A stretch of DNA of 64,000 nucleotides from Dielma fastidiosa. Lineage in GTDB: Bacteria > Bacillota_I > Bacilli_A > Erysipelotrichales > Erysipelotrichaceae. This document shows, one piece after another, positions 3,956-47,092 of this stretch. Under the pieces are notes generated by a model. That model saw only the letters and a program-made list of their open reading frames with translations. It searched no databases and was not told where the DNA came from. Where the stretch lies: NCBI RefSeq assembly GCF_000313565.1, contig NZ_HE578924.1, positions 170,572 through 234,571 on the forward strand. The letters run 5' to 3'. A program made the translations under genes and the position numbers. Within the stretch, counting starts at the first letter, position 1; each line of letters opens with the position of its first letter.

Positions 3956-5737
3956 TTATTTAGCCTGTGCTAACGCGGCAGCAATAGCTTCCAGTACCGC
4001 ATTGGATGAGATTGTAGCACCGCCGATTGTATCCACTTCAACCGATTGCTTCTGAATTACTTCAGGCAGCATATCCCGAACTACACCGTCAAAGATACCG
4101 GCAGTTTCTGAATGCTGTAAAACATTGATTTCACTGATACTGCCGTCTGTCACGATAACCTGTACGTTCAGCTCACCGTTGCGGCCTTTAGCTGATGCCT
4201 CATAAGTTCCGTCTTTGAAGTCACCTTTAACTGTCGGTTGGGCTGCTTTAGTTTCTGGCAGCACTAAGTCTTTTTTATCCTTAGTTTCAGCATAGGCACT
4301 GGCCTGGATACCTGCCTGACGGCCAAATACCATGATATCCGCAACAGCGTTGCCGCCTAAGCGGTTGCCGCCATGCAGACCACCGGTAACTTCACCAGCG
4401 GCATATAAGCCCTTGATGCTATCGCCGTCAACATTGATTACCTCAGTTAATGTATTGATTTTAATACCGCCCATGGTATAATGCACAGCTGGTGATACTT
4501 TAATGGCATAATAAGGCGCCTGTGATAAATCAACGTCTAAGCCAGTCTCTCTGCCAAACTCTGCATCATTCTTATTGGCTACCGCTTCATTCCATACAGC
4601 AATTGTTGATTCAAGAACATCAGCATCAATTTCAAGTACGCCAGCAAGATCTGCTAAGGTTTCACCCTTAGTAATGATGCCCTTTTCATAATTTTCCTGT
4701 AATGCCTTCATGCTATCCATCGTATTCTGATCCAGAATCATATACGCATATTTGCCAGGCTGTTCCAAAATAGCAGTAGACAGCACATCACGAGTCAGCA
4801 TTTCAGAGATAAAGCGTTTGCCGTCTTGATTAACAAAGATTGCTCCCTTACCGCGAACAGATTCTGAAATAACGGTATTGGTCGTAACTTCAACCGTTGG
4901 ATTTGTCTGAATCTGATCCGTATCTACTGTATCTGCACCAACTGCCTCTGCCATTACAATACCGTCTCCCGTAGCGCCTGGATGATTCGTAGTAGTAAAG
5001 CCTTTTAAATCAGGACGATATTTTACATAAAGGTCTTCATTAGCGCCGAAACCGCCAGTGGCAATAATCACCGCATTGGCATTGAAGACTAATTCCTCGC
5101 CATTCTTATCAACTGCCTTAACACCATTTACTTCACCATTCTCACTCAGTAATTCCGTAGCTGTCGTATTATATAGAATCGTGATTTGACGTTCTTCTAA
5201 ATTTTTCATTAATACTGGTACCAAGACGCCGCCGATTTTTGAACCGTCAGCCGGACGATGCATTCTTGGATAAGTAGCGCCCGCGCCCTGTGCAACATCA
5301 CTGACGTCCATATTAATTGATGTCAGCCAATCGATGGCTGCTGCGCTGTTTTCAGCAAAATAGGTAACCAGCTCCATATTATTGATCTCTTTGCCGCCAA
5401 TATAAGTATCATCGATCATTGACTGTACGCTGTCCTCAATGTTTTTTTCTTTTTGGAATACTGTTTCAGCGGCATTTAATCCACCTTCAGAACGAATCGT
5501 ATTTCCCCCTGCATAACTCATTTTCTCCAGAATTACCACATTTGCGCCGGCATCAGATGCCTCAATGGCTGCCGCCATACCCGCGCCGCCAGCACCAATA
5601 ATCACGATGTCAGCAGAATATACGGTATCTGATGGTTCATTGACTTCTGGCTGTTGTGGATTTTCAGCTGGTTTTGATGTACACCCGCTAACGAGCATTA
5701 AAGCTAAAAAGCCCATAAATAATTTTTTCATAATCAC
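3956..5737 (-). CDS. exported FAD/FMN flavoprotein reductase (fumarate/urocanate reductase type)
   Basis: A 593-residue lipoprotein (signal ending in LVSGC) with an FAD_binding_2 domain: dinucleotide fold GAGGAGMAAAIEA near the N-terminus and the HGGNRLGGNA motif near residue 450. A C-terminal FMN-binding domain (about 510-593) carries GGATISS, the pattern in which ApbE attaches FMN covalently to Thr. The architecture matches extracellular reductases that take electrons from a membrane donor to reduce fumarate, urocanate or similar acceptors. The order differs from Shewanella UrdA, where FMN is N-terminal. The start may be GTG 5737 (5 nt after AGGAGG) or ATG 5731. Substrate unknown. Confidence 0.85.
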   Translation of the reverse strand: MIMKKLFMGFLALMLVSGCTSKPAENPQQPEVNEPSDTVYSADIVIIGAGGAGMAAAIEASDAGANVVILEKMSYAGGNTIRSEGGLNAAETVFQKEKNIEDSVQSMIDDTYIGGKEINNMELVTYFAENSAAAIDWLTSINMDVSDVAQGAGATYPRMHRPADGSKIGGVLVPVLMKNLEERQITILYNTTATELLSENGEVNGVKAVDKNGEELVFNANAVIIATGGFGANEDLYVKYRPDLKGFTTTNHPGATGDGIVMAEAVGADTVDTDQIQTNPTVEVTTNTVISESVRGKGAIFVNQDGKRFISEMLTRDVLSTAILEQPGKYAYMILDQNTMDSMKALQENYEKGIITKGETLADLAGVLEIDADVLESTIAVWNEAVANKNDAEFGRETGLDVDLSQAPYYAIKVSPAVHYTMGGIKINTLTEVINVDGDSIKGLYAAGEVTGGLHGGNRLGGNAVADIMVFGRQAGIQASAYAETKDKKDLVLPETKAAQPTVKGDFKDGTYEASAKGRNGELNVQVIVTDGSISEINVLQHSETAGIFDGVVRDMLPEVIQKQSVEVDTIGGATISSNAVLEAIAAALAQAK

Positions 5738-11218: not shown

Positions 11219-11236
11219 TTGGTGGAGCTGGTGGGA
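11219..11236. repeat. attL-type core repeat (left end of prophage)
   Basis: ttggtggagctggtggga; identical to 46712-46729 except t for c at position 14. It is a copy of the 3' end of tmRNA. Confidence 0.88.
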
Positions 11237-15738: not shown

Positions 15739-17298
15739 TTATCGTACCAAAATTTTAAATGGCTGCTCACTAGCATACGGATAACCGTCTAGCGGATAAG
15801 TTGAAGGTTTCGGAGGTCTAGTATTTTCGATTGCCATATACATATAACATTCTTCCGGCACTTCATAATAACCTTCACCGTCAGGTTCGATGTCAATGAT
15901 ACTAAGATTTGACGGACGCACGAATCGTACTTGCATTGGTGATGGAAATTCTGAAAAAGGTTTAACTTGAGCACCTTTCTTAACAACTACAACCATATCG
16001 ATCATAAATGCGCCAGCTGCTCTTAGTCGCAGATCCGTTGTATCGAGAGAAAATGCTTTAACCATTTTCCGATTCAAAGAATAGACACAAGCTGCTCGTA
16101 AATCGATGCCATTCGATGACTGACCTTCCGGAAATTGAATTAAGTTGCCGTCAACATTTTTCCATTGATAAGAAAAACCGGTTAGCGTGTTGCTGTATGT
16201 ACCATTAATATAAATAAGCGATGCAGTGATTTCAGGCAGCCACGTACTGTATATCTTTTTCTCATTAGTGTCAACAATGATTTTTTCTTTTAGATAAATA
16301 TAAGCTCCTCGTTTCGTATCGAGATACCATTTAGTATTAGTGCTGCCTTCCGATGATATTGCAATGGAATTACTAGTTTCGTACATAACCAAGCCATCAC
16401 TAGCCACCACTCTATTAGCTGAACGTATAGATGTATTTGAGCTGTTGAATATGGTATTCAGCATGCTTAATTTAGTTAAATATCGATAGTCTTCATCGCT
16501 TGAAACATTTTTATATACTCCCGTTGAAGTATTATATAAAACCATCCGAGTATTCTTTATTCCGGCGTCTGCATTTTTTCCAAATATCATGATTTCGGTT
16601 TCGCTGTATGGAAAGCATCCATATACGCCAGATTCAGTTTGATTATTGCTCGAATTTTGACCGCCTGCATTAAACCCCATATCACCCGTGCTTATGCCTA
16701 ATACAGTCGTTGACTTTGTCGCTGCATCAAATTTCATGATGCTCGTATATGTCGTATTGGCGCTGCTTGATGTTCCGCTATCAGTCCTAGCACCAAACAT
16801 ATATGCAACATTACCAAGCATGCACACAGGCATATACGCCGTGATTTTTCTTGGCATGGCTACCGTCTCTAACGTGTATTTATCGGATTGAGTTAAATCA
16901 ACATATATGTGCAGCAAAGATGTGCTGTCGTTATTTATCATATAAATCTCATCTTTATATGTCATTGCAGCAATAATACTTGATCCTAAATATCCTTTAA
17001 CTGAATAACCTGATAATATCTTTTTAGGTAAAATGTTTTCCCAAGTTTTCAGATCATAAATAGTTATATAAATTGTTGTTGAATCGGAACTTTGACCCAA
17101 GACTATTAAATAATTATCTGTGTAAATATAGTTGCGTAAACTGTCATTGTATGGTTCAACGACTGTTTCATCATTCAAGTTTCTGAATGGACGCAGATTG
17201 CCAGCTTGTGCCAATAGATACCACGGGGATACAAAATCACTAATTAATGATGTACTATTATACCCCCCCCCCGAAATATTTAAACTGTTTTTAATCAT
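15739..17298 (-). CDS. putative receptor-binding/tail-fibre protein with poly-G tract
   Basis: 519 residues, no recognised enzyme domain. Repeated strands with Tyr/Trp and Gly turns (kelch-like spacing: YIYTDNYLIVLGQ, NVAYMFGA, ETEIMIFGK) suggest a beta-propeller-like centre. The C-terminal region (from about 390) is rich in aromatic residues. Codons 9-12 are TCG GGG GGG GGG, a run of ten Gs (17263-17272). Loss of one G brings TAA within ten codons, and gain of one gives an immediate TAA, so tract length switches the protein on or off. Position in the tail-tip cluster supports host recognition (inference). Confidence 0.65.
   Translation of the reverse strand: MIKNSLNISGGGYNSTSLISDFVSPWYLLAQAGNLRPFRNLNDETVVEPYNDSLRNYIYTDNYLIVLGQSSDSTTIYITIYDLKTWENILPKKILSGYSVKGYLGSSIIAAMTYKDEIYMINNDSTSLLHIYVDLTQSDKYTLETVAMPRKITAYMPVCMLGNVAYMFGARTDSGTSSSANTTYTSIMKFDAATKSTTVLGISTGDMGFNAGGQNSSNNQTESGVYGCFPYSETEIMIFGKNADAGIKNTRMVLYNTSTGVYKNVSSDEDYRYLTKLSMLNTIFNSSNTSIRSANRVVASDGLVMYETSNSIAISSEGSTNTKWYLDTKRGAYIYLKEKIIVDTNEKKIYSTWLPEITASLIYINGTYSNTLTGFSYQWKNVDGNLIQFPEGQSSNGIDLRAACVYSLNRKMVKAFSLDTTDLRLRAAGAFMIDMVVVVKKGAQVKPFSEFPSPMQVRFVRPSNLSIIDIEPDGEGYYEVPEECYMYMAIENTRPPKPSTYPLDGYPYASEQPFKILVR
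17263..17272 (-). repeat. G10 homopolymer tract in coding sequence
   Basis: Ten Gs on the coding strand near the start of the putative receptor-binding gene. Tracts of this length mutate by slipped-strand mispairing and act as phase-variation switches in many bacteria. Confidence 0.85.
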
Positions 17299-34783: not shown

Positions 34784-35623
34784 TCAGTACTTCAGACCTT
34801 CTAATTTCTTCTTTTTTTCTTCATCCGTCGATACCAAATAGATCCTCGTTGTTTCCAGAGACTCATGCCCCAGCAAATCAGCAAGCTCTGCAAGTCCATT
34901 GCTGTTTTCTTTTAAAAACTGCTTGGCAAACAAATGTCGGAAACTGTGCGGGTGAATCTTGCTTTTTTTTATCTTAAGCTCACTGGCCAGCCTTTGTAGT
35001 CGCCGCCAGATGGTTGATGCCGCCATTTGCTTACCCTTGACTTTGCCGGGGAAGATTGTACCTGTTCTGATGTTGCTGTTCCGGCAGTATTTCCTCAGCT
35101 CACGCGCCAAGTCCTGACGGATGGGCACAGTGCGGATTTTTCCTTTGTTGTCAATCTGGAGATAATTGCTTTTCAAATTTTCAACTGTAAAGTATTTCAA
35201 CTCGCCAACGCGAATGCCGGTGTTTGCCAGCACTTTCATAATGAGATAAGTATCAAATTGATCTCTCGACTTTGCTTTCCTTAACAGGCGGTTGTATTCT
35301 TCCGGCGTAAGCACATCGGACAAGCTGCTCTTGCGCTGCACCTTCAGCTGCTTAACACGCAGCTCCGGCGCACCGATCCACTTTAGATACTTATTCATAA
35401 CAACAATATACAAGCTGATCGTTGCCGGCCTGTATCCACTACCAAGCAGCATTTCCTTATATGCCAATGTGTGTGACTTAGTAATCTCAAAGTCCTCAGG
35501 CAGCATATCAACAAACCGGCGCACACCATGCTCGTATTTCTTAAGCGTGTTTACTGATTTCTCACTGCACTTCTGGTCAAGTAAAAACTCGGCAATGGCA
35601 TTTTCAAAATCTTTCTTTTTCAT
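34784..35623 (-). CDS. second tyrosine recombinase, XerC/D-like
   Basis: 279 residues. SAM-like N-terminal domain (about 1-95), catalytic domain with R in TGIRVGELKY, HPHSFRHLF (HxxR), LLGHESLETTRIY (H and nucleophile Tyr); all key residues present. It lies in the early region far from att and next to a half HsdS gene, so its substrate is probably not the att site. ATG 35623 has AGG-rich sequence upstream. Confidence 0.85.
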   Translation of the reverse strand: MKKKDFENAIAEFLLDQKCSEKSVNTLKKYEHGVRRFVDMLPEDFEITKSHTLAYKEMLLGSGYRPATISLYIVVMNKYLKWIGAPELRVKQLKVQRKSSLSDVLTPEEYNRLLRKAKSRDQFDTYLIMKVLANTGIRVGELKYFTVENLKSNYLQIDNKGKIRTVPIRQDLARELRKYCRNSNIRTGTIFPGKVKGKQMAASTIWRRLQRLASELKIKKSKIHPHSFRHLFAKQFLKENSNGLAELADLLGHESLETTRIYLVSTDEEKKKKLEGLKY

Positions 35624-35652
35624 ATTCACCTACCTTTTGGTCCTCAACTTCT

Positions 35653-36075
35653 TTAAACCACCATATTCTCTAACATGAATCTCTTTAAATTTTTAATTTC
35701 TTCTACTGCACGTTTTTCATTTTCAATAGCAAGTTCATTTTGCTGTAAACATTTGGCTATCTTATATTGATCGTCAATATCATGGATGCTTAGTTTCATG
35801 TGATAAAGTGTGTCAACCTGAATATTTATACCACTCTGATATTTTGCTAAAAATTCAGGTAATTCTTTTTCGATTGAATAATATAGGTATTTGGGAGCAA
35901 ATTCTATTTTCGGTATGATTACAGCATATTTGGTGTCAACATATTCATCTTCGTCCAAATACATTATTTGCCCTTTGGTTGCGCTGAAGCTAAGATAAAA
36001 TTTATCCTCACCGTGCAAATGGATTACATCACGGATGACATTAAGACGATCAAATAGGATTAACTCATTATCCAT
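35653..36075 (-). CDS. half-length HsdS-like protein (type I restriction specificity fragment)
   Basis: 140 residues. The C-terminal half has the HsdS pattern: FAPKYLYYSIEKELPEFLAKYQSGINIQVDTLYHMKLSIHDIDDQYKIAKCLQQNELAIENEKRAVEEIKNLKRFML, that is the end of a target-recognition domain and the coiled-coil spacer. A full HsdS has two such halves (about 400 residues). No hsdM or hsdR is nearby. A half S could dimerise with host HsdM, act as a decoy, or serve as a cassette for recombination by the adjacent recombinase. Confidence 0.6.
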   Translation of the reverse strand: MDNELILFDRLNVIRDVIHLHGEDKFYLSFSATKGQIMYLDEDEYVDTKYAVIIPKIEFAPKYLYYSIEKELPEFLAKYQSGINIQVDTLYHMKLSIHDIDDQYKIAKCLQQNELAIENEKRAVEEIKNLKRFMLENMVV

Positions 36076-36703
36076 TTACGATATCTTTCAGAGTCTTGTT
36101 ATCAGTGATTAATAAGTGATACGGAAATTCGTTTGCTGACAGGTAAGCAAAATAATCAACAGTGTTTTTAAATGACTTTATATCATTGACCGTGTTGTGT
36201 GTATACTGTGTAAAAATTATATTTTCTAAAGCTTTTATATAGTCACAGTCACTGATTTTTCGCGGTGCTGATCCAATGCAAATCATATTGTTTCCAAGCA
36301 TGTTAGGCATTGGGTATCTATACAATTTTGTATTTGTCCCATCAAACTGTTTATAGGCAAATGCTTTGATACTATCAACAGTGCCGGCATTTTGATACAT
36401 GATATATAAAGCGTTGGGAAAATGTATTTTATAAGCTTTATCCTTATATGTTACTATGCGAATATGCTCTGGCTGGTTTATCAGAATACTACCGAAATCG
36501 TCTGATGCGCCAATAATGCTTGAGTGTAGTAAATATGGTTTAGCATGGTTGTTTGCATATGGATTAGTTGTATAATCATTTATCTTTTTTACTATCTCCT
36601 TTAATGGAGCGCTCAAAAAATATTCTTGATTACTTATTTTGTTTACCTCAAGTATTTCCGCTTCCTCGTTAATGTCTGATATTCTAATTATCATCTCTTT
36701 CAA
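36068..36703 (-). CDS. PRTRC protein B-like/prokaryotic E2-like protein
   Basis: 211 residues. KLYRYPMPNMLGNNMICIGSAPR (about 126-148) carries the P-PN...CxG motif of PRTRC-B/Prok-E2 type D proteins; C142 is the candidate catalytic cysteine. Translation probably starts at TTG 36703, 7 nt after GGAGG; the ATG at 36694 is too far. The start overlaps the stop of the helical protein. In related cassettes this protein works with an E1-like ThiF and a ubiquitin-like protein. Confidence 0.7.
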   Translation of the reverse strand: MKEMIIRISDINEEAEILEVNKISNQEYFLSAPLKEIVKKINDYTTNPYANNHAKPYLLHSSIIGASDDFGSILINQPEHIRIVTYKDKAYKIHFPNALYIMYQNAGTVDSIKAFAYKQFDGTNTKLYRYPMPNMLGNNMICIGSAPRKISDCDYIKALENIIFTQYTHNTVNDIKSFKNTVDYFAYLSANEFPYHLLITDNKTLKDIVNG

Positions 36704-37542
36704 AATAGCACCTCCACGTCGCTTTTTTTAATACTCATAATCGTGTCCACTAGGCTATATCTACTTCCTATATCACCAAATGCCGAAAATATAGTGTTGT
36801 ATTCGGAATAGTTGTTTATTGGGTCATTGGTGATGCTCTTAATCAAATCTAGCATTTGTGCCATGTCTTCTTTATCAAGGTCAACGAGTGTGTTTCCTTC
36901 GCCGCTCATGTAGTCCAAGTAGCATACGACAAAGTCATCGTCAGTGACCTGTATAGCCTTAAATAAATCCATTGCCTGCACAAATTCGTTGTAATGCTCA
37001 CCACCATCAGATTCCGGATATTTCATATGCACATAATACAGTTCAGCATCGCTTTGATTATCTGCCAACCTGTCAATTTCTTCTCTTGCTTGCTTTTTGC
37101 TCAATCTGGGGTTGGTGATAATGTCAAGCACCTCTCGATATTCGCCGCCAATCTCGCTTTCAAGCCATTCAGCAGCGTTTAATAGAGATTTATCCTCACT
37201 AAGATTAAAGTAGACATCTGCCAAAAAATAAATTGGATTACAATACTCATTTACAATTCCAGGCTCTTTTACTATGCACTTGAGTATCAGTGCCAGAATC
37301 GGGCACATGTCATAATCGATATCTAAATACTGCTCTAAATGGTACGCAAATGCCAAATCTTCAAAGATATATCCCATATCATCCACATCAAGATCATTAT
37401 CAATTGCCGCTTGCCTTAAATTATCAATTAATGATTTTGCAAACTCTTGATCTAAGCAGCGTTCAAATAAAAATTTTAAGATTTGTCCGCCTTCACCGAG
37501 TTTGATATTTTTAGAAATGTATTTCCTCAAATTGCTTAACAA
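36700..37542 (-). CDS. helical protein of the PRTRC-like cassette, unknown
   Basis: About 280 residues, acidic, mostly helical (YISKNIKLGEGGQILKFLFERCLDQEFAKSLIDNLRQAAID...), no cysteine- or metal-rich motif. Fixed place between E1 and E2-like genes suggests a PRTRC E/F-like partner. Best start is TTG 37542, 8 nt after AAGAAGG; GTG 37551 is too close to that site. It overlaps the E1-like gene. Confidence 0.55.
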   Translation of the reverse strand: MLSNLRKYISKNIKLGEGGQILKFLFERCLDQEFAKSLIDNLRQAAIDNDLDVDDMGYIFEDLAFAYHLEQYLDIDYDMCPILALILKCIVKEPGIVNEYCNPIYFLADVYFNLSEDKSLLNAAEWLESEIGGEYREVLDIITNPRLSKKQAREEIDRLADNQSDAELYYVHMKYPESDGGEHYNEFVQAMDLFKAIQVTDDDFVVCYLDYMSGEGNTLVDLDKEDMAQMLDLIKSITNDPINNYSEYNTIFSAFGDIGSRYSLVDTIMSIKKSDVEVLF

Positions 37543-38189
37543 CAGTGACACCTTCTTTCAGCTCATTCGCCATGATGCAGCTGCAATGTTCTAATAAAGA
37601 AGTGGCCATCTTTAAATTTGTCACTAGATACTGAATATTGCCGGCAGCAAGTTCTTGACAGCTCTTTTCTGCTGGATGATCTTTATTCTCCAGTGTATAG
37701 GTTTCACTTCTTATCGCACCGTAGGTAACTTGATTAACATTCAATGCCGCGTAGACATTGCCGTCATACTCTGAATTAGCACTGTCTATGTAAACTGCAT
37801 TTTTTAAATGCCTGAAGGTTTGCTCTAACAAAATGCGAGTGGCATCATTATCAACGCAGCCTATAAGTATCGGATAAAATTCTTTGCGCTGATCGATAAA
37901 CTCAATCAGTTCATTTCTAGTCACATACTTATCAATCGCCTCGCACAATTCGCCATGAAATGTATTGATTTTCTTAGCAAGAGCTATCGCCTTGTTTTCG
38001 CCAATGTCTTGTGGTTGAAATGCTTGGCGTTTCATATTTTTTTTGCTCAACTTGATCTCCGTCAACGATTACCATTTTACTTGATGTGTTTAAAAGCAAC
38101 TTCGGTAAATCTCTTGCCAGTAAGGAGCCGGTACCGCCGGTTCCTATAATGACAAAGAGTTTTTTATACTTTATGTTTTCTATTTTCAT
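37511..38189 (-). pseudogene. PRTRC ThiF family/E1-like enzyme, frame broken at an A8 run
   Basis: Two frames joined: residues 1-50 (GTGGTGS nucleotide loop at 16-22; IVDGDQVEQ) end in a wrong frame, and the rest (KNMKRQAFQPQDIGENKAIALAKKIN...) continues in another. Both together make one E1/ThiF of 225 residues. The break is at eight As (38037-38044); seven would restore it exactly. C-terminal SCQELAAGNIQYLVTNLKMA holds the candidate catalytic Cys. It may be a real defect, a sequencing error, or be read through by polymerase slippage on the A run. Confidence 0.8.
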
Positions 38190-38192
38190 AGT

Positions 38193-38531
38193 TTAACCTT
38201 TTTTATGCTGCTGAAAGGTTGGAACAAGTACGTTATCAGCTTCGATTAAGTCATAAGACACTTTTCCAGAAAACTCATAAAACTGATGGTTAAGCATAGC
38301 ACTGGTAATCTCATCAGCGGTATATTCCTTGCCCTCCTCAAAGATATGGCTAACGTCAATGTTCTGAGCGGCATAATACAGTGTAAATGGGTATTTATAC
38401 TTTTTCACTTCTACCGGTTGTGGTTCTTTCTTCGCTTCCGGTTTTTTACTTGTTTCTTTCTTTGGTTTTTCTTTCTTTGGTTCTACTACCTCAAATTCTT
38501 CCTCATCTAACATTTCAAATAAATCATCCAT
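38193..38531 (-). CDS. ubiquitin-like protein, PRTRC protein C-like, C-terminal Gly
   Basis: 112 residues. An acidic start and a Lys/Pro/Glu-rich flexible part (to about 45) precede a small domain YKYPFTLYYAAQNIDVSHIF...YTADEITSAMLNHQFYEFSGKVSYDLIEADNVLVPTF, then QQHKKG, ending in Gly. PRTRC-C/Prok_Ub proteins have a beta-grasp fold and end in Gly that E1 adenylates; the exposed Gly needs no protease. It is encoded 3 bp before the E1-like gene. Confidence 0.7.
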   Translation of the reverse strand: MDDLFEMLDEEEFEVVEPKKEKPKKETSKKPEAKKEPQPVEVKKYKYPFTLYYAAQNIDVSHIFEEGKEYTADEITSAMLNHQFYEFSGKVSYDLIEADNVLVPTFQQHKKG

Positions 38532-38532
38532 C

Positions 38533-39531
38533 TTATTTTTCCTCCTTAGTTTCTGATTTTTTTACAGGCATCATATACCTTGCAAGCACATACCGATTAT
38601 TGCGCATACCCTCATCGCAGATTAACATTCGGGCGCCAAAAATCACCGATACATCGTCTTCTTTCATCAATGAAGTAATCTTTATTAATCTAGCAACATC
38701 ATAAGATAGGTCAGCGGCTTCACCCTCTATTTCTGCATTGACCTGTATTGCCAGTTCGTTACTTTGTTCGCCGGCATACAATTTGATACCTTTACTATTA
38801 GTGCTGATGGTTACATATTTTGAATATTCTTTTATCAGTTTCAATGCTTGAATCATCTCATCACGAGGCAACTTAGCTTTTAACAGCGGTTCATCATCCA
38901 TTTTGACGTCTGGCAGCTTTTGTTCTATCAACACTGTATAAAAGCTGCGGCCGGCAGTTTTTGATACAAGCATCTTACCGTTTGTCTGAAGCCTCATCGT
39001 TTCGGTATCAAGTATATGTTTAAATGCTTCTCCTGGCACATTGATTGGATTATCAAGACCGGTATCAGTGGTGTGAGTGTAAAACATAGTCCTATCAGAA
39101 GCTACAATCTTATCAGAGAATATGTTAACCCCTGATAGCTGTGGATACGTTGAGTCACTTCCAATAAATTGAGTACCTGGAAGCAAATCATCTAATTTGA
39201 CTTGAATATCTACCATGTCATTAAGCGTTGGCGTGTAGACAGGATAATCAATCACATTGGCAAATTTTGCCTTGAGTCTAGTATTAGATACCTTGATCAC
39301 GTTGTCCGTGAATTCCAGCGTGAAGTCACTGAGTTTTGATATAAACCCAAAATCTTTTGCGCTTAAAGTAAAAGATGCCGGTTCATCAGCTTCTTTACTC
39401 ATCTTTGCGGCTCGAAGGATGCCCATGCCGGCACCGTCGAATGAGTGAAATTTGATTTTATCCTTATCCACTGTGATGGTGTTATATGGCATCGGATCAT
39501 GAAATACCGATGAGTTCAATTTGATTTTCAT
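38533..39531 (-). CDS. dnaN-like: sliding clamp, DnaN-like
   Basis: 332 residues. Three repeated beta/alpha clamp domains, with HSFDGAGMGILRAAKM, DFTLEFTDNVIKVSNTRLKAKFANVIDYPVYTP, VKLDDLLPGTQFIGSD, SGVNIFSDKIVASDRTMFYTH and the C-terminal YVLARYMMPV matching the clamp end that binds the client pocket. A phage-made clamp adjusts replication to its own polymerase or partners. It is one gene upstream of the ubiquitin-like protein in the same operon. Confidence 0.75.
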   Translation of the reverse strand: MKIKLNSSVFHDPMPYNTITVDKDKIKFHSFDGAGMGILRAAKMSKEADEPASFTLSAKDFGFISKLSDFTLEFTDNVIKVSNTRLKAKFANVIDYPVYTPTLNDMVDIQVKLDDLLPGTQFIGSDSTYPQLSGVNIFSDKIVASDRTMFYTHTTDTGLDNPINVPGEAFKHILDTETMRLQTNGKMLVSKTAGRSFYTVLIEQKLPDVKMDDEPLLKAKLPRDEMIQALKLIKEYSKYVTISTNSKGIKLYAGEQSNELAIQVNAEIEGEAADLSYDVARLIKITSLMKEDDVSVIFGARMLICDEGMRNNRYVLARYMMPVKKSETKEEK

Positions 39532-39532
39532 T

Positions 39533-40486
39533 TTATTTTCCTTTCTTACTTATGTGTTCTTCTTTCCACATTTCGGCTAGCTCAGCTTTTAATTGCTCCA
39601 CTTGTTCAGGAGTCAATTCTTCGTCGTCTGAGCTTTCAATTTCTTGCTGCTGCTCTTTATACCAATCCGGTATAGGTACAGCTGTTTTCTGATATACGGT
39701 TCCTTTCTGTCTCTTTTTCATGTGCTGCTTAGCACTTTCGGCATCCTTAATACCTGCTGCCTGCCAGTCTGCCAATACTTTGTTAATGTATTTAAATGAC
39801 TTTGCTTTTTTGCTGATGGCTGTTTCAAGTGCCAGTAATACAACCTCATCATTAAATGTGTTCAGCCAATCATGTAAAGTTTGTAATTCGAGCTGTGACA
39901 ATGGATTTCCAAATGATATTTCAAATGTCTCAAAAATATTTTTTAATCGCTCATTTGATTTCTTTACTTTACTTTTATTTACTTTACTTTCCTTTAGACT
40001 CTTAACATGATCATTCGCAAGGTCAACATGTTCATTCGCAAGCTCATAATTGTCAAAAAGTGCGACTTTAAAACAACCTTTGCATTCTTCATCTTGCAAA
40101 AGCCAATATTCCATATATACAGTTTTGTCACGACGCTCTGAAGCAACTGCCCAATAGCGCCGTTGGATACCTTTACTGGTTAGCACTCCCCACCTATCAA
40201 ACAGCCCTTTATCAAAAAGACCAATTTGTAAGCAGTAGTCCACAGTCTCTTTGACTGTACCGGAACCAATGCCGCCGCCCATCTTACGTGCCGTAGATGC
40301 ACAATCGTCATAGCCCCATTTATAAAAGTATCCTTCAGACCCATACGCCTTTTGACATAAATAAAAGTAAATTCCGAATCCATTCCAGCCTTGTGCATCA
40401 AGCAGCTTATCCATCTTGGTGTCATTGTCAAACAGATCCACAGACCAGCCAGCGTAATCTAGCTTTTTCTTAGGTTTGCCAGCCAT
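39533..40486 (-). CDS. phage replication initiator, DnaD-like
   Basis: 317 residues. N-terminal winged-helix domain of the Lin1244/DUF4373 type (DYAGWSVDLFDNDTKMDKLLDAQGWNGFGIYFYLCQKAYGSEGYFY). A Lys/Ser linker (VNKSKVKKSN) precedes a DnaD/DnaB_2-type C-terminal domain (about 195-260, FNDEVVLLALETAISKKAKSFKYINKVLADWQAAGI). It should bind the phage origin and recruit helicase. No helicase loader gene is seen near it. Confidence 0.85.
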   Translation of the reverse strand: MAGKPKKKLDYAGWSVDLFDNDTKMDKLLDAQGWNGFGIYFYLCQKAYGSEGYFYKWGYDDCASTARKMGGGIGSGTVKETVDYCLQIGLFDKGLFDRWGVLTSKGIQRRYWAVASERRDKTVYMEYWLLQDEECKGCFKVALFDNYELANEHVDLANDHVKSLKESKVNKSKVKKSNERLKNIFETFEISFGNPLSQLELQTLHDWLNTFNDEVVLLALETAISKKAKSFKYINKVLADWQAAGIKDAESAKQHMKKRQKGTVYQKTAVPIPDWYKEQQQEIESSDDEELTPEQVEQLKAELAEMWKEEHISKKGK

Positions 40487-43620: not shown

Positions 43621-43919
43621 CTAGCTTTCCACGGCTGCGGTATCTCTTTTTTGTTGCTCGGCCGCTTCGATAGCTGCCAATTTTCGAATGCGATTTTCAT
43701 CAATCATCAGATATTTTATAGCTGCTGCTGTTGGTACTTTGTCTTCACATGGCAGCAGCTTCCCACTCTCGATGATTTTCTGCTTTACTTTTTTTTAAGT
43801 TCCAACGCTTTACACGGCCCGCAGTCAAAAAGTATTTGGAAAGTAGCCGTTGATTGCTCAAGTAAATTGAGCACTGTCAATTTTTCCGATGCAGTGTGTA
43901 TCCTCGATTTCTGTGGCAT
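43621..43919 (-). pseudogene. phage early protein gene broken at an A8 run
   Basis: AGGAGG and ATG 43919 are followed by MPQKSRIHTASEKLTVLNLLEQSTATFQILFDCG... and a stop after 44 codons at LKKK. One extra A in the eight-A run (43791-43798) opens the frame to the end: ...VKQKIIESGKLLPCEDKVPTAAAIKYLMIDENRIRKLAAIEAAEQQ. The whole would be 99 residues, possibly DNA-binding. Confidence 0.6.
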
Positions 43920-45394: not shown

Positions 45395-46609
45395 ATGATC
45401 GAGAAAGTAAAAGTAAAAGTAAAAACCGGTAAACTTGACAAGGAAGGCAAGCCACTTTATAAAGAAGTCGAAAAATACAGATTCAGATACTACTACACAA
45501 CCATCACGGGACAAAGACGGCAAAAGAATAGCAAACGTTATGATACTATCAAATTGGCTAAAAAAGCTGAAGAAGATTTTATTGCCAACCATTTAAACCA
45601 AACAACAGCAAGTGGAGTAAAATTTTCTACTTTATTAACTATGTACAAAAATGATATGATCAATAACAATGAAGAGACAACCTTAGTAACCAAGATGAGT
45701 AAAATAAAGGGACACATAGAACCTTATTTCAAAGATTTAATGATTGAAAATATTACACCGTTAACTATTAGACAATGGCAAGATACGATGTATTCTAAAG
45801 AATATGTTAAAGAAACCATTAAGCAGAAAGGCAAACCAGATATTAAAGTCATGGCAAAATTCAAAAAGAGTTATCTAATGGAATTACACACTTTGTTAAC
45901 TACTATACTTGAATATGGTGTTACTTATTACGGTTTACTGAAAAATCCAGCTAAAGTACAAGGTAATTTCAAGAGAAAAAAAATTGAAGTTTCAGCAGAT
46001 AAAGATGAAGAAAATTATTTCACAATCGAAGAGTTTAATTTATTTATTAAATTTGTACCAGAAGCATATTCTGACTTCTTTAACTTCATGTATTATACAG
46101 GTTGCCGTCCTGGTGAAGTGTTCGCCCTTACATGGGACAAATACAACGGAAAGTCTATAAATATAAATCAATCTCTAAGCCGTAAAGCATTAAAAGGCGG
46201 ATACATACTAAAAAGCCCTAAAAATGAAGCTTCAATCCGAGTAATTGATTTATCTAAAAATATAATAGAAATTCTCAATAAGAGAAAATTGAAAGAAGAG
46301 AAAAAATACGGCTTCAATGACAACTGGTTTATTTTTGGATCATATAAACCTCTCTCAGAAACCACTATACGAAGAGTTGCGGATAAAGCTATGTTAGCAG
46401 CCAACTTAAAACACATAACACTTCATGGCTTTCGACATTCTCACGCATCTTTGCTTATCAATGGAAATATGAATATTAAATTAATCTCATCAAGATTAGG
46501 ACATTCTAGTGTTACTGAAACTCTTGACACTTATACGCATATGTTTCCAGAACAACGTGAAATTTGTGTTAATTACCTTAATGCTATATTTAATAAATTA
46601 GGCCAGTAA
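45395..46609 (+). CDS. int: prophage integrase, tyrosine recombinase
   Basis: 404 residues: N-terminal AP2-like arm-binding domain (about 1-65), SAM-like core-binding domain (about 65-190), catalytic domain with TGCRPGEV (Arg), LHGFRHSHASLL (HxxR), RLGHSSVTETLDTYTHM (H, Tyr). It lies 100 bp from the right att site, as expected. AGGAGG precedes ATG. Confidence 0.95.
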   Translation: MIEKVKVKVKTGKLDKEGKPLYKEVEKYRFRYYYTTITGQRRQKNSKRYDTIKLAKKAEEDFIANHLNQTTASGVKFSTLLTMYKNDMINNNEETTLVTKMSKIKGHIEPYFKDLMIENITPLTIRQWQDTMYSKEYVKETIKQKGKPDIKVMAKFKKSYLMELHTLLTTILEYGVTYYGLLKNPAKVQGNFKRKKIEVSADKDEENYFTIEEFNLFIKFVPEAYSDFFNFMYYTGCRPGEVFALTWDKYNGKSININQSLSRKALKGGYILKSPKNEASIRVIDLSKNIIEILNKRKLKEEKKYGFNDNWFIFGSYKPLSETTIRRVADKAMLAANLKHITLHGFRHSHASLLINGNMNIKLISSRLGHSSVTETLDTYTHMFPEQREICVNYLNAIFNKLGQ

Positions 46610-46711: not shown

Positions 46712-46729
46712 TTGGTGGAGCTGGCGGGA
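46712..46729. repeat. attR-type core repeat (right end, within ssrA)
   Basis: ttggtggagctggcggga; contains the CCA end of ssrA, so integration leaves the gene intact. Confidence 0.88.
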
Positions 46730-47092
46730 GTCGAACCCGCGTCCAAAAATAGTTCCTCGTACAGACGTCTACAGTTTATTTCATACTAGTTACTCAGCAA
46801 GTAGCGATGAACAAACTCTTCCTGAGGCGTTTGATGGAATTTTCATGATGCACTTCTCAAACAAAGGTACACCCCTATCCTTTATCTCTTACACCCAAAC
46901 CAAGCCTAAAGGCAAAACCTGATTGGACGGCTGCAAACCAGTTGTTAGGTTAATTAAGCAGCAAAAGCAACTTGACGGTTTCCACCGAATAAGTTTGCTA
47001 AGAAATTTTTTCCAGTTATTTTTTAAGCCTTTACGTAGCGACACGACTGCAGTCTGCACCAAACATATCCCTGTCGAAACCATGACAGCCCC
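46713..47092 (-). ncRNA. ssrA: tmRNA (transfer-messenger RNA)
   Basis: 380 nt. 5' end GGGGCTGTCATGGTTTCGACAGGG (tRNA-like half), 3' end with GGTTCGACTCCCGCCAGCTCCACCA. The tag frame starts with GCA at 46998 and ends with TAA at 46954 giving ANLFGGNRQVAFAA. Rescues stalled ribosomes with SmpB, encoded just upstream. The 3' end is the prophage attachment site. Confidence 0.97.

Follow-up and report, generated by a model that had tools for sequence, protein, structure and literature searches.

What does a small phage do with a protein-tagging system of its own, and why should that system lie directly beside a DNA sliding clamp? The question is raised by a prophage of Dielma fastidiosa, a gut-type Firmicute, carried in a stretch of 64,000 nucleotides (contig NZ_HE578924.1, positions 170,572 to 234,571) that is referred to here as the window. 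A cassette of this prophage encodes a DnaN-like clamp, a ubiquitin-like protein (Ubl), an E1/ThiF-like adenylyltransferase, a helical protein and an E2-like protein. The cassette is real and conserved, and by sequence comparison it corresponds to the core of operon type 6d (PRTRC), minus JAB and ParB. As to its role, the chances are about even that the locus represents, within the replication module, a phage Ubl conjugation cassette of the Prok-E2_D/type 6d kind that acts on the replisome. What would be new is a phage variant of a known, functionally unexplained system, together with its link to a clamp.

On the minus strand, the genes run in the order clamp, Ubl, E1, helical protein and E2, separated or overlapping by a few bases to a few tens. 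The first-pass annotation had placed five genes in one operon here, the helical protein among them; the genes are tightly packed, and the arrangement stands except that the E1 does not form one intact open reading frame (ORF). The order Ubl-E1-helical-E2 is common to 26 distinct (pro)phage cassettes of the Erysipelotrichales, the window copy included, which came from viral contigs, from species genomes and from 316 genomes belonging to the host order; this excludes a chance arrangement. Within that order, which takes in the named relatives Amedibacillus, Solobacterium and Anaerorhabdus, the E1 was found in 11 of the 316 genomes, and Prok-E2_D at E 1e-6 was confined to the same order among 392 genomes drawn from the phylum. 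Neither the window clamp nor the window E2 had a match in GenBank phages. Between close pairs, the ratio of nonsynonymous to synonymous substitution rates (dN/dS) was 0.03-0.11 for the E1, 0.08-0.09 for the E2, 0.09-0.34 for the Ubl and 0.11-0.34 for the helical protein, and purifying selection of this strength implies that a function keeps the cassette in place.

The Ubl (38193-38531, minus strand) comprises 112 amino acids, as had been annotated, with a Lys/Glu-rich tail and a C-terminal domain (residues ~44-107). It ends in QQHKKG, and in an alignment of the family the final K111-G112 is invariant in 26 of 26 members. The AlphaFold model of the domain has the order beta-beta-alpha-beta-beta with a pLDDT of ~90. 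In HHalign, the Ubl matched those encoded by Bacillota plasmid cassettes at 90.5%, in register to the terminal KKG, while PRTRC C was reached at 0.1% directly and at 90.5% and 59.9% through the Bacillota plasmid Ubls as intermediates; no relevant Pfam or NCBIfam match was obtained. The codons at this terminus contain AAAGG, which may serve as the ribosome site of the E1 gene, but the K-G end is kept even where the E1 start lies 158 or 244 bases off, so it is not merely a ribosome site.

The mature glycine goes hand in hand with the lack of a processing protease. No JAB match was obtained among the cassette proteins, the JAB profile was blank across the window and the family loci, and Prok-JAB gave no match over its cut-off in any host genome, all in keeping with the earlier statement that no JAB protease is present. 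The further suggestion, that this absence fits a ready-made C-terminal Gly, is supported by 19 cassettes outside the family that have an identifiable Ubl and in which JAB was scored by profile. The Ubl was extended, fused or repeated in 8 of the 11 cassettes with JAB, against 0 of the 8 without it (Fisher p=0.003). Among those with JAB, Cupriavidus, Xanthomonas, Chondrocystis and Gloeocapsa have a Ubl that runs on beyond the Gly; Alicyclobacillus (AHKKG/A), Rubrobacter (AQKKG/A) and Planococcus have one that is fused to JAB, and Vibrio phage D69 has three tandem copies; a mature end despite a JAB is found in Azospira, Rhizorhabdus and Methylomonas koyamae. All 8 without JAB have mature Ubls (Thermoanaerobacterium, B. 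halotolerans, Clostridioides, Paenibacillus, Pseudoalteromonas, P. aeruginosa, Deinococcus and Aeromonas), as do all 26 of the phage family, likewise without JAB. The rule is simple: where the protease is absent, the modifier gene stops at the reactive glycine.

Two details of these outside cassettes can be recorded. In the fusions, the Ubl is joined to the N-terminus of JAB (Alicyclobacillus, L096:5922-6863; Rubrobacter, L106:5905-6915; Planococcus, L118:7112-7927), with the junction right after the KKG/AKG at which standalone Ubls end. The gene of Vibrio phage D69 (OZ195729.1, L101:3382-4173) encodes 263 amino acids with three Ubl-like repeats, each ending ..GTKG, adjoins E2-like, JAB and E1 genes, and looks like a polyubiquitin-style precursor.

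The E2-like protein (36068-36703, minus strand, 211 aa) carries the annotated CxG motif as CIG at Cys142, followed by His169, and both residues are invariant in a 22-member alignment. It matches Prok-E2_D (PF14460) at 27.5 bits against a cut-off of 25 (27.6 bits in the whole-genome search), which confirms its E2-like identity. PRTRC_B is matched by 21 of the 22 family E2s, and HHalign placed the family E2 with PRTRC B at 98.2% and with the Bacillota plasmid E2s at 98.7%; solved structures gave no sequence match. Between E1 and E2, at the same place in all cassettes, stands the fast-evolving helical protein (36700-37551, minus strand, 283 aa), whose other copies are 10-23% identical to that of the window. 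Its AlphaFold model has a mean pLDDT of 68, no family or fold match was found, and HHalign detected no relation to PRTRC F or to the helical proteins of Bacillota plasmids. Its near-invariant C-terminal 'EV' was considered as a docking motif, an idea that was dropped because the codons, GAGGTG, are the ribosome-binding site of the E2 gene.

The clamp (38533-39531, minus strand, 332 aa) matches phrog_947, 'DNA polymerase processivity factor' (E=2e-18), and the profile of its family (A5) reaches the solved beta clamp 4tr6 in the PDB (E=3e-8), so that the DnaN-like assignment made at first sight is well founded. On the E1 tree, the phage family falls into two groups, one of 12 cassettes with an intact clamp and 1 with an interrupted clamp, the other of 13 cassettes with a different protein, X. 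The clamp lies directly upstream of the Ubl in every intact clamp-type cassette. Since the split between clamp and X fits one change on this tree, the link within the family counts as one event and is weak alone.

Stronger evidence comes from plasmids and from a second phage lineage. DnaN was found within 6-8 kb of a type-6d/PRTRC E1 in 8 of 23 sampled plasmids, namely those of Pseudoalteromonas, Azospira, Alicyclobacillus, Rubrobacter, P. aeruginosa, Xanthomonas, Aeromonas and Planococcus, which span Pseudomonadota, Bacillota and Actinomycetota; the other 15 had no DnaN within the stretch examined. One DnaN query matched 388 of 72,556 plasmids (0.5%), and at that rate 8 of 23 would arise by chance with a probability of 3e-13, a figure to be read with the reservations that the sample is non-random, that large plasmids hold more genes and that the query is non-exhaustive. 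In the fecal phage MT835919, which represents the second lineage, DnaN directly follows a JAB-E1; this E1 had no match among the viral contigs, and a search of the same contigs with the Alicyclobacillus E1 returned one contig (L120), with E2 and JAB and no clamp. The claim that the cassette is coupled to a clamp is thus upheld as a recurrent tie in plasmids of three phyla and a second phage lineage, though not across the phage family, half of which has protein X instead. The recurrence in unrelated plasmids suggests that mobile elements attach tags to components of their own replication machinery.

Protein X was also considered as a disguised clamp and rejected, as its profile scored 2.7% against the clamp family and matched neither Pfam nor PHROGs. 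Its C-terminus reads ..DPMA or DPMLA (L004:4074-4895, L014:8193-8846, L042:5443-6129 and others), and the RecT-like proteins that some of these phages encode (L007, L013, L015) end in the same way. X-type cassettes often lie near a gene named RusA-like by sequence resemblance. On viral contig L009, the clamp gene (4319-5294) is apparently split into two overlapping ORFs.

Whether the copy in the window can work is a separate matter, which turns on the E1 (37511-38189, minus strand). Its ThiF identity is supported by matches of the second ORF to ThiF (8e-10) and to PRTRC_ThiF (4e-14), the best named match, and the gene is interrupted by a frameshift. The N-terminal ORF (37974-38189, minus strand, 71 aa) contains the GTGGTG loop and leaves the frame after DGDQVEQK, while the C-terminal ORF (37511-38065, minus strand, 184 aa) contains CVDNDATR and the conserved Cys (SCQE, codon 37660-37658). 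The break falls at a run of eight A (38037-38044, minus strand), where the conserved frame of the intact homologues needs one A fewer; with A7, the window E1 would read VEQKNMKRQ, the motif of the intact proteins (VEEKNMVRQ, VERKNMKRQ and others). The other 25 E1s of the family are all intact, at 218-230 aa, with no frameshift at that site. The E1 motifs (Rossmann loop, D, R, Q/D and Cys), invariant with the conserved Cys in 6 aligned members, are all present in the window, split over two frames. The annotated E1/ThiF with a GxGGxG loop and a C-terminal Cys therefore survives in its identity and its loop and not as an intact gene. Because the 71-aa ORF ends ...GDSSC out of frame, the Cys that had been pointed out may be an accidental residue, the conserved one lying in the second ORF.

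The frameshift is likelier a real lesion than a sequencing error. The same A8 occurs in IMG 2770939561, a second record of a practically identical prophage, which over 14.6 kb shows no substitutions relative to the window and differs at only two other A runs (41717 and 43789), by one A each. This disagreement means that homopolymer length is unreliable in at least one record; both agree on A8 at 38037-38044, but they may not be independent. At window position 43789, the shorter A run apparently interrupts an ORF of 105 aa that IMG 2770939561 has in full. The lesion may render this copy inactive, and the view that a functional family is represented in this strain by a decaying remnant, which is compatible with a replisome role for the family, has slightly less than an even chance. 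It draws on the extra A, which the intact frames of all homologues lack, and on its recurrence in a record that differs at the two other poly-A runs; it is countered by the intactness of the clamp, Ubl, helical and E2 genes, and by the apparent break of a window ORF at a disputed homopolymer, which makes a sequencing error possible. Slippage on long A runs occurs in bacteria, and the A8 lies precisely at the ORF junction, so programmed frameshifting or transcriptional slippage could regulate how much E1 this phage makes. This is quite improbable, as no other member has a frameshift at that site and the change required is +1, or the loss of one A, rather than the common -1.

From the gene neighbourhood, we infer both the conjugation itself and a clamp that would be its target or its platform; the activity of the cascade, the order of transfer, the substrate and the function are equally putative. 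In the proposed scheme, the E1 would adenylate the C-terminal Gly of the Ubl, which, being made already mature, would not need a JAB protease. The Ubl would then move to the E1 Cys and on to Cys142 of the E2, assisted by His169, and the E2 with the helical protein as a target-specific partner would attach it to a phage replication protein, for which the co-encoded clamp, or a protein bound to it, is the most plausible candidate. Such tagging would alter which polymerase, repair or host factors act on the phage fork. In this genome, where a one-base insertion splits the E1, the cascade would probably be off, or would run only through frame-restoring slippage products.

Several observations weigh against this scheme. 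The Ubl fold match is weak, with the B1 domains of protein L and protein G, which are classed as beta-grasp in SCOP, as top Foldseek matches at E-values no better than 0.07. In half of the family, protein X, with no detected similarity to the clamp, stands in the clamp's place. The plasmid sample behind the clamp link is non-random, and the window E1 is frameshifted. Since the known bacterial conjugation systems act in defence, the chief competing account keeps the conjugation and redirects it at host or rival-phage proteins, in defence, counter-defence or superinfection exclusion, with the clamp a mere early-operon neighbour. A case with a characterised role is CBASS Cap2 (PMC10097602, PMC11153139). 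The 13 X-type cassettes that manage without a clamp, and the accessory distribution of the cassette (11 of 316 genomes), agree with such a role. Nevertheless it is rather unlikely: the known defence Ubl families were unmatched, save for a weak match to an E1-E2 model (E 0.01), the cassette lies in the replication module, away from the phage ends, and the related plasmid cassettes lie near ParB, DnaN and SSB. Least probable of all is a sulfur carrier, in which the Ubl would bear a thiocarboxylate in the manner of ThiS/MoaD instead of tagging proteins. The E1 is ThiF-like and sulfur transfer is common among ThiF homologues, yet the Ubl is always accompanied by the gene for an E2 whose Cys and His are invariant, and no rhodanese, desulfurase or cofactor gene was seen to recur nearby.

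The interest of the family lies in its background. PRTRC/type 6d systems are standalone Ubl-E1-E2 systems laid out like eukaryotic ubiquitin, and their function appears unexplained; no functional study of PRTRC was found in the full-text literature by titles and abstracts, a coverage that leaves subscription journals outside. The phage family is a minimal four-gene version carried by small phages, and the recurrent dnaN neighbour offers a concrete candidate substrate.

The setting of the locus is that of a complete prophage of ~35.5 kb (approximately 11219-46729) integrated at the 3' end of the tmRNA gene, ssrA (46713-47092). The repeat TTGGTGGAGCTGG lies at the tmRNA 3' end (46712), with a second copy at 11219, and Pfam matches identify an integrase (45395-46609), an S24 repressor, terminase, portal, capsid and tape measure. 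With this gene set and integration site, the description of the cassette as phage-borne proved right. The cassette lies on the minus strand in the replication module, downstream of a DnaD-type replisome organiser (39533-40486, minus strand; Lin1244_N and DnaD/DnaB_2 in Pfam), the upstream neighbour of the clamp. At its other end, the range first assigned to the cassette included 35653-36075 (minus strand), which is an HsdS-like single target-recognition half (Methylase_S 3.6e-8) whose start overlaps the E2 stop; this gene is no conserved member, as other cassettes carry different genes there. Next after it comes a second tyrosine recombinase, XerC/D-like (34784-35629, minus strand) and distinct from the phage integrase. 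Elsewhere, a tail-region ORF (15739-17298) has close to its start a C10 tract (17263-17272; G10 in the coding sense) that is possibly phase-variable.

Among known systems, the closest is operon type 6d, described by Iyer, Burroughs and Aravind in 2006 as a standalone Ubl with a C-terminal Gly, an E1, an E2 with Cys and downstream His, and a fast-diverging helical protein, with a JAB gene always in or beside the operon (PMC1779556). The phage cassettes resemble type 6d in the Ubl, E1, E2 and diverging helical protein, and differ in that all 26 are without JAB; neither clamps nor phages figure in the type 6d description in the passages of that paper covered here. The resemblance to PRTRC (TIGR03736 ThiF, TIGR03737 B) noted at the outset holds in that the window E1 and E2 are distant members, the Ubls end in KG and dnaN is often near. 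Strict membership fails, as PRTRC_ThiF scored 52.4 bits, on the second ORF of the split E1 only, against an NCBI cut-off of 144.75, and PRTRC_B 29.0 bits against 131.45; no ParB-family protein or protein A (JAB) was found among the scanned proteins around the window cassette, which also lacks a recognisable E or F and is carried by a phage.

Bacillota plasmids (Thermoanaerobacterium pMU3262, Bacillus halotolerans, Alicyclobacillus p1) have Ubl/E2_D/E1 cassettes that share the KKG end and the HHalign relation in Ubl and E2 (90.5% and 98.7%), and p1 has dnaN upstream of its cassette; these cassettes differ in gene order, in the Ubl-JAB fusion of Alicyclobacillus and in helical proteins of no detectable relation. 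With CBASS Cap2/Cap3 (PMC10097602, PMC11153139), the phage cassette shares an E1/E2-type conjugation logic in bacteria. In CBASS, a single protein joins the E1 and E2 domains, and it is the cyclase that becomes tagged. No such genes occur here, and the E1 similarity is general only. Eukaryotes ubiquitinate and SUMOylate PCNA, and here too a Ubl system stands beside a sliding clamp, by analogy only. It is a tentative and rather doubtful idea that mobile elements of several phyla might modify their own clamps, or proteins bound to them, through a dedicated bacterial Ubl system, which would be an independent counterpart of PCNA ubiquitination, streamlined in phages by a mature modifier and no protease.

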